Positions 36,295-41,115 of a stretch of DNA of 64,000 nucleotides are shown here, piece by piece. The position numbers and the translations under genes were made by a program. Under the pieces are notes generated by a model that searched no databases, was not told the origin of the DNA, and saw only the letters and a list, made by a program, of their open reading frames with translations. Numbering within the stretch: position 1 is the stretch's first letter; the number at the start of each line of letters is the position of its first letter. Source of the DNA: Shouchella clausii (lineage in GTDB: Bacteria; Bacillota; Bacilli; Bacillales; Bacillaceae_D); the NCBI RefSeq assembly GCF_001598215.1, contig NZ_BCXJ01000004.1, positions 496,001-560,000 on the forward strand. The letters are read 5' to 3'.

Positions 36295-36360
36295 AGGTTC
36301 GTACGGATTTGAAGGGAACACGATGGCAAAAGTGAAGAGTTCCAAAAGGAGGAAATGAAG

Positions 36361-37455
36361 ATGAGTGTACTACTTGCAGACACGAAGCTTCAAGAAGTGA
36401 AAGAAAAAGTGTTACATGGCGAGCGCCTTTCGATAGAAGATGGCCTTGTTTTATATGAAACGCCTGATTTGCTCGGAGTTGCACAACTGGCTAATATCGT
36501 CAACGAGCGGAAAAACGGGCAAAACGTTTATTTTATCGAGAACCTTTATATCAATCCAACGAACGTGTGTGAAGCCAACTGCGGATTTTGTGGCTTTAAG
36601 CGCAAACCAGGCGAAAAAGGCGCTTATACGATGGATGAGGAAGCATTATTAAAATATGTGGAAGACCGTTGGAACGACAACATCCGCGAATTCCATATCG
36701 TTGGCGGGCACAACAATGAAGTCGGTTTCGAGTATTATGTGAATACCGTAAAAACGTTGAAAAAGCACTACCCGCAAGTAACGATTAAAGCGTATACAGG
36801 AGCAGAGATTGAATTTTTCTCACGCCTTGCTGGCATTTCTATGAAAGAAGTGATCCAAACGCTCATGGACGCGGGGCTGGCCACATTAACTGGAGGCGGT
36901 GCAGAAATTTTGACTGAGCGGTACCGTGCTATTATGAGCCCGGATAAAGCATCGACAGACCAATGGCTTGAAGCACACGAAACGGCTCACAACCTTGGCT
37001 TGCGCACTCATTCAACGATGCTTTACGGCTCAGTTGAAACGAAAGAAGAGCGCTTGATTCATATGCAACGGGTCCGCGACTTGCAAGACCGTACAAACGG
37101 TTTTATGGTTTTCATTCCTCTAGCGATGCAGCCGCGAAACGTAAAGGCAGGCTTAAACCGTCGTACTTCCGCTTACGATGATATGCGTACGATTGCTGTC
37201 AGCCGCCTCATGCTCGACAATTTCCAGCATATAAAAGCGTATTGGATCAACATTGGCGTTCAGTTGACACAAATGGCGTTGACTTTTGGCTCCAGTGACA
37301 TCCATGGCACATTAATTGAAGAACGGATTTCCCATTCTGTTGGTGCATTAACGTCTGCAGGCATTACGCGAAAAGAACTGATTCATATGATCAAAACAGC
37401 TGGCAAAACACCAATCGAACGCGATACATTCTACAATGAAATAAAACGCTATTAA
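36361..37455 (+). CDS. mqnE: Aminodeoxyfutalosine synthase (radical SAM) MqnE
   Basis: A 364-residue radical SAM enzyme that joins the adenosyl radical to 3-[(1-carboxyvinyl)oxy]benzoate, giving aminodeoxyfutalosine, in the futalosine route to menaquinone. The cluster motif CEANCGFCGFKR (CxxxCxxC, about residues 66-77) follows YINPTNV; HIVGGHNNEVGFEYYV and LTGGGAEIL are typical of MqnE/MqnC/CofH. GGAGG lies 8 bp before the ATG at 36361. MqnC, which shares the fold, is the main alternative, but the length and the INPTN context favour MqnE. It stands alone here; B. subtilis uses the classical men pathway. Confidence 0.85.
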   Translation: MSVLLADTKLQEVKEKVLHGERLSIEDGLVLYETPDLLGVAQLANIVNERKNGQNVYFIENLYINPTNVCEANCGFCGFKRKPGEKGAYTMDEEALLKYVEDRWNDNIREFHIVGGHNNEVGFEYYVNTVKTLKKHYPQVTIKAYTGAEIEFFSRLAGISMKEVIQTLMDAGLATLTGGGAEILTERYRAIMSPDKASTDQWLEAHETAHNLGLRTHSTMLYGSVETKEERLIHMQRVRDLQDRTNGFMVFIPLAMQPRNVKAGLNRRTSAYDDMRTIAVSRLMLDNFQHIKAYWINIGVQLTQMALTFGSSDIHGTLIEERISHSVGALTSAGITRKELIHMIKTAGKTPIERDTFYNEIKRY

Positions 37456-38666: not shown

Positions 38667-38903
38667 TTAAAACATAGGATTTTCTTCTAAATATTTATAA
38701 ATATTGGAAACTAGCGCTTCTGGGGTATCTCCAGCTATATACTCGCCGTTAACGAGAGCGAAATAGTCGAGCGCACATGTGCCGCAATGGTTGAGGCAAC
38801 CGTATTCAATTATATCTAAATTCGGGTCTTTTTCTAGCTCTTCCATCGCATCATGTGATCCGCTTGCCAAGTTGCTTAAACAAAATTCAATAATCGGTCT
38901 CAT
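38667..38903 (-). CDS. yuzB: YuzB family (UPF0349/DUF1450) protein
   Basis: A 78-residue protein matching the YuzB family by length and motifs: [41 protein letters not shown]. Three or four conserved cysteines (CLNHCGTC) resemble a thioredoxin-like 2Fe-2S or metal site. The function is unknown. GAGGTGA precedes the ATG at 38903. It is divergent from the TetR-YutJ gene. Confidence 0.87.
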
Positions 38904-39020: not shown

Positions 39021-39049
39021 TTGTCGGATCTCTCATCAATCGGTATAAT
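39021..39049 (+). promoter_or_regulatory. Sigma-A promoter of the TetR-YutJ gene
   Basis: TTGTCG (39021-39026), 17 bp, perfect TATAAT (39044-39049). The transcription start should be near 39056. Confidence 0.75.
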
Positions 39050-39055
39050 CAAAAC

Positions 39056-39067
39056 TGACCGAGGTCA
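39056..39067. promoter_or_regulatory. Inverted repeat at the TetR-YutJ start point
   Basis: TGACC-GA-GGTCA, arms of 5 bp, overlapping the expected transcription start. This is a typical place for an autoregulatory TetR operator. Assignment is inference. Confidence 0.45.
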
Positions 39068-39124
39068 CTTTTTCATATCCTCTAAAATTGGAGGTGAACC
39101 CGCCACTGTTATTGGTGGACCATT

Positions 39125-40759
39125 ATGGCCGTCCTCCAGAAAAAGAAGAAGACCCGTTTGGCCATTTTAAATGCGGCCGTGTCCCTTTTTCATCAAAAAG
39201 GGTTTCACTCAACAACGGTACAAGAAATTACAAATCATGCACATGTAGCAAAGGGGACATTTTTTAACCATTTTCCTACAAAAGAATCGATTTTGCATGC
39301 GCTTGCAGAAGAACGGCTGCTCTTGCTGGCAAACAGCCAATCCACCGGCGCAGGCAGCCAGTCACTGCTAGCAAATATTCGGGCAAGCCTGCTCTACTTA
39401 TTGGAAGACTACGATATTCATCCTACATTAACGGTGCTTATTTGGAAACATGCTGCTGAGCACGAAGATAGCCTGTTCGCCCATTGGAAGCAGCTGCTAG
39501 AAGAAACGAAAGAAGAGTGGGTTGCCAGTGGCATCGACCACGGCTTACTCGCCCACATTATTAACAGCCATGTTGCTTATGGGTTGCATGCATTTCGCTA
39601 TGAACCGACTTGCATCGGTCTTGTAGAAAAAATAATGACACTTGTAGAGACAAGTTTTGGCACCATTTCAAAAAGAAGGAGACCTTTTTCCATGAAGAAA
39701 CTCGTCGTATTAGGAGCAGGATATGGAGGCATGCGCTTGTTACAGCGTTTATTGCCAAACGACTTGCCAAAGGACTGGGAAATCATCCTTGTCGATCAAC
39801 TCCCTTACCATTGTTTAAAAACCGAATATTATGCCCTTGCCGCTGGAACGGCATCAGACCACCATTTGCGCGTCTCTTTCCCTGAAGATGAGCGCTTGCG
39901 CATCAAATACGCGACCGTTACTGCCATTCATTTGCAAGATTCAACAATTGACCTTGACAATGGCGAGTCGATTCCATTTGACAAACTCGTTATTGGCCTC
40001 GGTTGCACAGATAATTACCACGGCGTGCCTGGAGCTGACCAGTATACGTACAGCATTCAAACGATGGGCGCCACAAGAAGAACATATGAAGCGCTCAACA
40101 ATGTTCGTCCAGAGGGAGTCGTCTCCATTGTTGGCGGTGGTTTAAGCGGTGTTGAGCTTGCTAGTGAACTGCGGGAAAGCCGGCCCGATTTGACGATTCG
40201 CCTATTTGACCGCGGCGATTACATTTTGTCGATGTTTCCGAAAAAATTAAGCACGTATGTGCAAAACTGGTTTGTCGAACACGGAGTCGATGTCAGCAAC
40301 AATTCCAACATTACAAAAGTCGAGCCCGGCGCGATTTACAACCATGACGAGCGCATCGAAACAGATGCAGTCATTTGGACGGCCGGCGTTCAGCCTGTTG
40401 ATGTTGTCCGCACCCTTGACGTTGAAAAAGACCGCTCTGGCCGGATTGTCTTGACTCCCCAACACTTTATACCAGATCATCCTAATGTTTTTGTTGTCGG
40501 CGACTGCGCAAGCCTTCCTCATGCGCCAAGCGCCCAGCTTGCCGAATCACAAGCAGAGCAAATTGTGACGATTTTAAAGCATCAATGGAAAGGAGAAGAA
40601 TTGCCTGAGACGTTACCGCGCATTAAATTAAAAGGTGTGCTCGGTTCACTTGGCAAAAAACACGGCTTCGGCATGATGGGTGAAAGACCCCTTACCGGTA
40701 GAGTGCCGCGGATTCTAAAAAGCGGCGTGCTGTGGATGTACAAATACCATTCTGGTTGA
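39125..40759 (+). CDS. TetR regulator fused in frame to a YutJ-type NADH dehydrogenase
   Basis: One uninterrupted 544-codon frame. Residues 1-189 are a complete TetR regulator with its HTH at about 10-57 (FHSTTVQEITNHAHVAKGTF, then FNHFPTKESIL). Residues 190-544 are a complete 355-aa NDH-2-like flavoprotein with VVLGAGYGGMRLL, VSIVGGGLSGVELASEL and VFVVGDCASLP, the same length as B. subtilis YutJ. An ATG at 39692 (M190) follows AAGGAG by 11 bp, so a free YutJ could be made from the same mRNA. No stop codon separates the two parts. Either a true fusion or loss of the tetR stop. Confidence 0.85.
   Translation: MAVLQKKKKTRLAILNAAVSLFHQKGFHSTTVQEITNHAHVAKGTFFNHFPTKESILHALAEERLLLLANSQSTGAGSQSLLANIRASLLYLLEDYDIHPTLTVLIWKHAAEHEDSLFAHWKQLLEETKEEWVASGIDHGLLAHIINSHVAYGLHAFRYEPTCIGLVEKIMTLVETSFGTISKRRRPFSMKKLVVLGAGYGGMRLLQRLLPNDLPKDWEIILVDQLPYHCLKTEYYALAAGTASDHHLRVSFPEDERLRIKYATVTAIHLQDSTIDLDNGESIPFDKLVIGLGCTDNYHGVPGADQYTYSIQTMGATRRTYEALNNVRPEGVVSIVGGGLSGVELASELRESRPDLTIRLFDRGDYILSMFPKKLSTYVQNWFVEHGVDVSNNSNITKVEPGAIYNHDERIETDAVIWTAGVQPVDVVRTLDVEKDRSGRIVLTPQHFIPDHPNVFVVGDCASLPHAPSAQLAESQAEQIVTILKHQWKGEELPETLPRIKLKGVLGSLGKKHGFGMMGERPLTGRVPRILKSGVLWMYKYHSG
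39692..40759 (+). CDS. yutJ: YutJ-like NADH dehydrogenase, internal start
   Basis: The alternative product of the same frame, starting at the internal ATG with AAGGAG upstream. It gives a 355-residue FAD/NAD(P) oxidoreductase beginning MKKLVVLGAGYGG, the exact N-terminus expected for YutJ. The genomic place (next to yuzB, yuzD and yutI) is that of yutJ in B. subtilis. It is a second NDH-2-like protein, besides YumB at 25.5-26.7 kb. Whether it is made alone, only as the fusion, or both cannot be told from sequence. Confidence 0.6.
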   Translation: MKKLVVLGAGYGGMRLLQRLLPNDLPKDWEIILVDQLPYHCLKTEYYALAAGTASDHHLRVSFPEDERLRIKYATVTAIHLQDSTIDLDNGESIPFDKLVIGLGCTDNYHGVPGADQYTYSIQTMGATRRTYEALNNVRPEGVVSIVGGGLSGVELASELRESRPDLTIRLFDRGDYILSMFPKKLSTYVQNWFVEHGVDVSNNSNITKVEPGAIYNHDERIETDAVIWTAGVQPVDVVRTLDVEKDRSGRIVLTPQHFIPDHPNVFVVGDCASLPHAPSAQLAESQAEQIVTILKHQWKGEELPETLPRIKLKGVLGSLGKKHGFGMMGERPLTGRVPRILKSGVLWMYKYHSG

Positions 40760-40800: not shown

Positions 40801-41115
40801 CTATGCGAGAATCGCTTCCACTTTTTCAACAATCATTTTTAAATTCGGGTTGCCTTCTGCAACCACTTCACCATTTAGAACAACGAGCGGATAAAAATAC
40901 GCTTCATTTAAAATCGCCGCAGCCAAGCGCTTTTTTTCTTCCGATGATTGCGGTTCGTCAATGTCGACATAATCAAACTCAAGAGGCGCCTGTGGGAATT
41001 TCCGTAGTAAAGCCGCTTCGAGCCATTCCTTAGTATCTAATGCACTAGGCAAATGAACGCAAGAAGCACATTTTTGCTTAGCGCCATAAATGGTAAACAT
41101 GATTGATTTAGCCAT
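40801..41115 (-). CDS. yuzD: YuzD family (DUF1462) thioredoxin-like protein
   Basis: A 104-residue protein of the YuzD/DUF1462 family with a thioredoxin-like fold. It has a CASC pair in [19 protein letters not shown] (about residues 10-28), VDIDEP, and [16 protein letters not shown]. The family is linked with disulfide or Fe-S metabolism by context; the role is not established. Its neighbour yutI is a divergent NifU-type scaffold. A GGGGGAG site precedes the ATG. Confidence 0.85.

Follow-up and report, generated by a model that had tools for sequence, protein, structure and literature searches.

Does a bacterial gene that reads as a TetR repressor joined to a whole flavoprotein encode one working protein, and what would such a protein do? 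The question is raised by a frame in the window, the whole 64,000-nucleotide stretch of Shouchella clausii DNA analysed here. The original prediction read this frame as a TetR-YutJ fusion with an internal start, and named a lost tetR stop codon or a sequencing error as the simple alternative. The textbook flavoenzyme that represses its own gene is PutA. A second, unrelated construction in Gram-positives, built from a member of the TetR family, a very large family of repressors, and an NDH-2-like flavoprotein, would show that the PutA principle arose more than once. Among open-licence papers, we found no description of the fusion.

TetR and YutJ are encoded in one open reading frame

The listing of open frames in the window gives a single frame across both proteins, with no stop codon anywhere between 39125 and 40759:

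39125-40759, + strand: TetR-YutJ fused gene, 544 codons in one open frame, ATG start
39125-39691, + strand: TetR half with the linker included, residues 1-189, helix-turn-helix at residues 14-60
39692-40759, + strand: YutJ half, residues 190-544, a full-length flavoprotein with two dinucleotide-binding domains

A Pfam scan matched TetR_N (PF00440) to residues 14-60 (E 7e-17) and Pyr_redox_2 to residues 192-471 (E 1e-34), so that the predicted domain order, full-length YutJ and stop-free junction were all confirmed. The YutJ half is 100% identical to that of Shouchella tritolerans FJAT-45399. The fusion protein is almost certainly made by the cell; like the other probabilities given here, this is our own estimate and not a calculated figure.

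The predicted model of the fusion has a mean pLDDT of 90.1 and a pTM of 0.66. Behind the helix-turn-helix it places an all-helical domain of the kind that serves the TetR family for ligand binding and dimerization, with helices at residues 81-92, 100-113, 115-127, 139-156 and 163-185. The TetR helices run up to residue 185 and are followed by an ill-defined joint at 186-188 (pLDDT below 50), and the YutJ fold begins at about residue 190. In the model the joint is short, and at this pTM the placing of the two halves relative to each other is not confident.

Past the helix-turn-helix, residues L93, T103, W107, W121, S148 and Y152 of the TetR half are near-invariant (at least 90% of 30 sequences), as expected of a working domain. 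Together with the poorly ordered linker and the uncertain placing of the halves, this favors a reading in which the TetR half works as a conventional autorepressor that senses a ligand, for example a quinone-pathway or other small molecule. YutJ would then be merely target and passenger, the joining would fix the expression ratio or the local concentration, and the state of the flavin would never reach the DNA. We consider this reading possible but doubtful.

The fusion is conserved across the family and order

Using the whole protein as query, we found the fusion in a single frame in 37 of 41 family genomes, among them the single-contig genomes G010, G003 and G004; the window genome (G000) and G056 belong to the same species. 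Of the four exceptions, G006, G048 and G053 have YutJ only, and a tblastn search of these three genomes for TetR remnants, with eight TetR halves, gave nothing beyond weak matches (best E 0.04). In the fourth, G005, the halves lie in different frames, so the split may be tolerated or may be a draft error. G005 is the one point in favor of a sequencing error or a recent loss of the tetR stop codon, but it is a draft of 290 contigs (86% complete) and its close neighbor in the YutJ tree, G009, is fused.

To survey the order, a profile of 30 TetR halves was run against 397 genomes and eight candidates were scored per genome. The fusion was found in 39 of the 397 genomes, from seven families (15, 7, 1, 12, 1, 1 and 2 genomes); like all our counts of fused loci, these are not independent and are inflated by relatedness. 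In all 39 matches (E up to 4e-57) this TetR subfamily lay within a frame of at least 542 aa. The next-best TetR was an ordinary stand-alone protein at E 1e-32, and no stand-alone member of the subfamily was found among the eight candidates per genome in the 397-genome sample. YutJ itself matched at E ≤1e-50 in at least 349 of the 397 genomes, among the matches listed. Outside the order, the matches listed for 398 class genomes include at least one fused gene, in G502, with 51% identity; more distant fusions may exist beyond the matches listed for the order and class samples. A 593-aa frame over YutJ in Paenibacillus (L089) was rejected as a chance frame, its upstream part not being protein-like (judged without a family scan).

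Because the same single frame recurs across the family, the order and beyond, the fusion is neither an error nor a fresh stop loss. Comparison of the tetR-yutJ junction in related genomes was a check proposed with the original prediction, and conservation in eight families refutes the simple alternative, to which we attach next to no probability.

Both halves and the linker between them are conserved as coding sequence

The 60 fused loci that we compared carry 47 distinct linkers (last 12 residues). None of the 60 has a stop codon or an alignment gap between residue 176 and the YutJ Met, with 286 of 720 linker codons one change away from a stop. Among 74 non-fused yutJ loci, a set that excludes unaligned YutJ N-termini and two loci without a start codon at that place, 37 show an in-frame stop in the 12 codons that precede the YutJ start. 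The open frame of the linker thus seems selected, given that no stop or gap occurs in 47 distinct linkers. Both counts speak against a TetR half that senses a ligand with YutJ as passenger, since useless coupling should tolerate stops and indels in the linker.

In 11 close pairs, omega was 0.02-0.24 for the TetR half in 10 pairs and 0.02-0.06 for the YutJ half in 9 pairs, dS being saturated in the remaining pairs. The pattern is that of purifying selection acting on both the TetR and the YutJ half. Additionally, distances between TetR halves and between YutJ halves were correlated over 26 loci (r 0.72), with none of 5000 permutations as high.

In a 62-row tree of YutJ halves (midpoint root, long branches), families f1, f5, f35, f42 and f45 form one group with support of 90/96, which includes one non-fused f35 row, and members of f7, f46 and f65 lie on other branches. 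A label test on 28 fused and 4 lost or split rows gave a value as low in 70 of 500 shuffles. The tree fits a single old fusion that was later lost in places as well as a horizontal spread of the fused gene, and either may apply. The fusion probably arose once, when a tetR gene came to be read through into yutJ. More speculatively, separate yutJ genes like the one in B. subtilis may derive from the fusion by trimming.

A predicted start signal for free YutJ lies within the linker

The original prediction also considered that the internal start, if it works, yields a second product. Two features bear on this:

39676-39681, + strand: internal Shine-Dalgarno AAGGAG, translated as part of the linker
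39692-39694, + strand: internal ATG, the predicted start of free YutJ, encoding Met in 60/60 fused loci

The Shine-Dalgarno is present as predicted; the spacing is 10 nt, where 11 bp had been given. Upstream of the YutJ Met, fused loci read AAA, CAA or AGA, then AGG (57 loci) or GGG (3 loci), then GGA, AGA or AGT (rarely AGC or GGG), followed by three variable codons. Arg185 is thus encoded by AGG in 57 of 57 Arg cases; over these genes AGG makes up 127 of 1680 Arg codons (7.6%, this site included). Among 256 degenerate conserved columns, that of Arg185 shows the strongest codon conservation. The three loci with Gly in its place belong to one genus and use GGG, which preserves the Shine-Dalgarno.

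The calculated pairing energy with the anti-Shine-Dalgarno sequence at the internal ATG averages -8.56 over the 60 fused loci, with every value at -8.0 or better. For 617 other in-frame ATGs the mean is -2.90, with 28 at -8.0 or lower, and 19 of the 60 loci have another in-frame ATG that does at least as well as the internal start. Set against the first start, the internal ATG has the better signal in 43 of the 60 loci, the poorer one in 16 and an equal one in 1; the window values are -9.3 for the internal start and -4.9 for the first start.

Non-fused yutJ genes have the same kind of ribosome-binding signal. That of L193 would translate as KRGNS-Met, and the TetR-less G006 has AAAAGGAGA before its yutJ start, at the same distance as the internal signal of the fusion. 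Because these genes share such a signal, the linker looks most simply like a translated old yutJ ribosome-binding site, which readthrough from tetR would have turned into coding sequence. From this resemblance one might argue that only the fusion is made and that the internal Shine-Dalgarno is a fossil from before the fusion. A fossil would decay, yet the AGG codon is kept at Arg185 and the change from Arg to Gly leaves the signal intact. The G502 gene, which was held out from the definition of both the start signal and the operator, tells against a fossil as well: its joint reads AAGAAAGGAAGTCAAGCCATG, with other amino acids in the linker and yet AAAGGA before the internal ATG. The signal is kept at the nucleotide level and therefore seems selected, and we regard a mere fossil as quite improbable. 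The internal start at 39692 very probably works, and the near-invariant Shine-Dalgarno and invariant Met lend the proposed dual product good support.

NDH-2-like proteins are dimers. Two products predicted from one mRNA, with the stronger signal at the internal start in most loci, would also suit a gene-dosage feedback: free YutJ would pair with the fusion's own YutJ half, repression would become weaker or stronger through such mixed dimers, and the fusion would in this way gauge the amount of YutJ. Nothing in the sequence speaks specifically for mixed dimers, and we think this feedback unlikely.

A conserved palindrome lies at the promoter of the fused gene

Upstream of the fused gene we located a promoter and, just downstream of its -10 box, the palindrome AAAnTGACCnnGGTCAnTTT:

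39021-39049, + strand: sigma-A type promoter of the fused gene, TTGTCG, 17 nt, TATAAT, 10/12 matches
39044-39049, + strand: -10 box TATAAT, part of this promoter
39051-39072, no strand: operator palindrome AAAACTGACCGAGGTCACTTTT, predicted binding site of the TetR half
39056-39067, no strand: operator core TGACCGAGGTCA, at about +1 to +12

The core begins 6 nt after the -10 box in the window, and the flanks reach the full form of the palindrome in most fused loci. In 60 fused loci, each from a different genome, we searched the 250 bp before the likely start for TGACCnnGGTCA. The core was found in all 60 with at most one mismatch (50 exact, 10 with one mismatch), compared with 1200 mononucleotide shuffles that yielded 0 exact cores and 5 with one mismatch. 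The 300 bp upstream of the YutJ start in 83 other yutJ entries, a set with partly extrapolated starts and with duplicates (three of the split G005, two of G006), held 0 exact cores and 1 with one mismatch. The exact operator of G005 sits further upstream, ahead of its TetR frame. In five non-fused loci (L049-L052 and L109) an exact core lies inside or at the edge of the yutJ-matched stretch and not upstream of it.

In all 60 fused loci a -10 box (at least 5/6) precedes the operator by no more than 22 nt, and in 57 of them by 5-7 nt; a -35 box (at least 4/6) was found in only 39 of 60. With the -10 box at this distance, the transcription start would lie beneath a bound repressor.

The exact core occurs twice in the 4.66-Mb window genome, one copy being at the fused gene, and a reversed control pattern occurs 3 times genome-wide. 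Because the reversed control is equally common, the weight of the motif rests on its position and conservation, not on rarity alone. Within the window, allowing one mismatch, there are 3 matches to the motif against 1.01 expected, a number reached in 6 of 100 shuffles. In all 13 fusion genomes of a set selected by us, an exact site lies at the fused gene.

The three genomes without TetR also have no intact operator. In G006 (Shouchella lonarensis, 2.6-Mb genome, locus L037), a decayed ACTGACTAGGGTAATT stands directly behind TATAATCAAA, about 130 bp upstream of yutJ. G048 and G053 retain less of the operator than G006. Following a TATAAT, the decayed operator of G006 reads as the fossil of a lost regulation. 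The held-out G502 carries the operator with one mismatch, TGACTATGGTCA, behind a -10-like TAAAAT, so that both the operator and the internal start signal were found where they had been predicted.

Because the operator is kept at the gene's own promoter and is lost or decayed in TetR-less genomes, we regard the TetR half as an autorepressor. The palindrome is very likely the operator of this autorepressor, and we are confident that the TetR half would repress its own gene there. A palindromic operator at the own promoter, predicted here in 60 of 60 fused loci, and a TetR_N helix-turn-helix are shared with TetR family autorepressors, and the conserved palindrome supports the DNA-binding role that had been proposed for this half. 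Unlike in those autorepressors, the output is the repressor's own C-terminal half, and no member of the subfamily outside a fusion turned up among the candidates scored in the 397 genomes.

We looked for a shared regulon and found none: eight fusion genomes contain 19 further exact TGACCNNGGTCA sites, of which 16 lie inside long frames and three are intergenic. The only other exact core in the window genome (G000:C2:1808-1819; L160:1509) lies between two oppositely read genes and is possibly a second operator target. In G021, a stand-alone TetR paralogue (L172:916-1527) has TGACCATGGTCA directly upstream, so this sister repressor may read the same operator.

The YutJ half resembles NDH-2 but differs in the quinone motif

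The YutJ half aligns to the NDH-2 of C. thermarum with E 4e-32, reaching only residue 385 of 405 in 4nwz, and its fold matches are NDH-2s, SQRs and FSP1. The nearest fold entry is 9a5s, entitled 'Integrative model of YUTJ-FER by crosslinking MS and deep learning', which the PDB sequence searches did not list. Its YutJ chain, which we take to be the B. subtilis protein, is 65% identical to the YutJ half over 355 columns and has the same length (355 aa). The genes next to the fusion encode DUF1450, DUF1462 and NifU-like proteins, as presumably do those next to yutJ in B. subtilis; with its full-length similarity and this neighborhood, the YutJ half qualifies as a YutJ orthologue. Unlike the fusion, the stand-alone protein has no TetR half, and no exact operator core was found in the 300 bp upstream of the 83 other yutJ entries.

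We compared the YutJ half with the NDH-2 motifs given in PMC5299459. The fold and the motifs GxGxxG, GD, GxGxxGxE and WxxG are shared with NDH-2 (C. thermarum 4nwz, S. aureus 5na1, YjlD 9pxk). For FAD, the window protein has GAGYGG at 197-202; G197, G199, G459 and D460 are invariant in 31 YutJ sequences, and the third Gly (202) varies among relatives. The NADH motif with its catalytic Glu reads GGGLSGVE, with G337, G339, G342 and E344 invariant in the same sequences, as are W418 and G421 of WxxG. In contrast, the NDH-2 quinone motif (AQxAxQ, AQxAxR or APxAxQ) is absent from the YutJ half, where the window has AQLAES, the majority of the alignment AQLAEA, and the position of AQxAxQ reads AQLAE[SA]Q overall. 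The chain also ends earlier than in NDH-2, with a single modelled C-terminal helix (526-541), and carries TetR at its N-terminus.

In the literature, yutJ appears in a table as 'NADH dehydrogenase' (PMC9912610) and is treated as an NADH dehydrogenase-quinone reductase isoform that was undetected in spores (PMC12772218). The original prediction had likewise called the protein an NADH dehydrogenase; the YutJ half keeps the FAD and NADH motifs, but the missing quinone motif and shorter chain weaken this name. We take Fer in the title of 9a5s to be ferredoxin. The main text of PMC10090944, the likely source of the model, does not mention YutJ, so the pairing with Fer comes solely from the title of the deposited model. 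Given that title, the electron partner of YutJ may be ferredoxin rather than quinone.

Cys294 (window 40004-40006), within GLGCTDNYHG, is invariant in 31 YutJ sequences and is Ser in C. thermarum NDH-2. It is possibly a redox or partner residue.

A PutA-like model for the fused gene

The best reading of the locus, with a probability of roughly 0.75, is an autogenous, PutA-like repressor-enzyme whose mRNA would also supply free YutJ. A dimer of the TetR half would sit on the palindrome and block the gene's own promoter. Translation from 39125 would give the 544-aa TetR-YutJ fusion and translation from 39692 the 355-aa free YutJ, and in the window genome the stronger start signal is the internal one. 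A signal would then lift repression and provide more YutJ when needed. Against this reading stands the absence of the TetR half from 3 of 41 family genomes.

The signal would most plausibly be the state of the YutJ half, that is, reduction of its FAD by NAD(P)H or engagement of an electron acceptor or the membrane, as in PutA; alternatively, or additionally, it would be a ligand of the TetR half. By analogy with PutA, repression may be coupled to the state of the YutJ half, a step for which we hold the odds to be slightly below even. That the repressor senses NADH or quinone redox state, as the original prediction suggested, is plausible. In the fullest form of this proposal, the electron load of YutJ (NAD(P)H versus ferredoxin or menaquinone) would switch a repressor dedicated to its own gene and the second start would supply free enzyme, so that one gene would be sensor, repressor and output. 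This remains tentative, and we would not quite call it an even bet.

The comparison with PutA is instructive in both directions. According to PMC5293562, PutA has an N-terminal DNA-binding domain, acts as repressor of its own gene and relocates to the membrane once proline reduces its flavin. An N-terminal DNA-binding domain on a flavoenzyme is common to the trifunctional PutA of enteric bacteria and the fusion, and autogenous repression, described for PutA (PMC5293562), is predicted for the fusion. PutA family members without a DNA-binding domain exist (PMC5293562), as do YutJ proteins without TetR. In the fusion, as in PutA, DNA-binding and flavoenzyme domains lie in one chain with an operator, here a predicted one, at its own gene. 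In contrast, PutA consists of a ribbon-helix-helix and a proline dehydrogenase and the fusion of a whole TetR and an NDH-2-like flavoprotein; the Pfam scan found TetR_N and Pyr_redox_2 in place of the PutA domains, which sets the fusion outside the PutA family. The conserved internal start is a feature of the fusion, set against PutA. The redox-driven membrane move of PutA has been measured, whereas the fusion is known here from sequence.

The fusion would offer a handle on the role of YutJ, an NDH-2-like flavoprotein of uncertain role, and its operator renders the autorepressor idea testable. With its conserved internal start, it would be a clean natural case of one gene providing DNA-bound and free forms of an enzyme.

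Neighboring genes

The following genes and sites surround the fused gene in the window:

38667-38903, - strand: yuzB (DUF1450), divergent neighbor
38951-38923, - strand: promoter-like site of yuzB, no overlap with the operator
40801-41115, - strand: yuzD-like gene (DUF1462), convergent neighbor
36355-37455, + strand: mqnE, aminofutalosine synthase of the futalosine menaquinone pathway, a recurrent neighbor of the fused gene

The promoter-like site of yuzB is clear of the operator in the window, and we make no claim that the operator controls yuzB. mqnE was found in 34 of 39 fused genomes and in 37 of 358 other order genomes, and 30 of those 34 fused genomes have it within 5 kb of the fused gene. 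These counts are uncorrected for relatedness, and we do not build a menaquinone link on them. Judged by eye, the stretch immediately before yutJ in Paenibacillus woosongensis (L055) resembles the end of mqnE. Two adjacent mqnE-type genes, both above the family cut-off, occur in G113, G195, G220 and G309 (family f35, genus g63) and in G015 (family f1).
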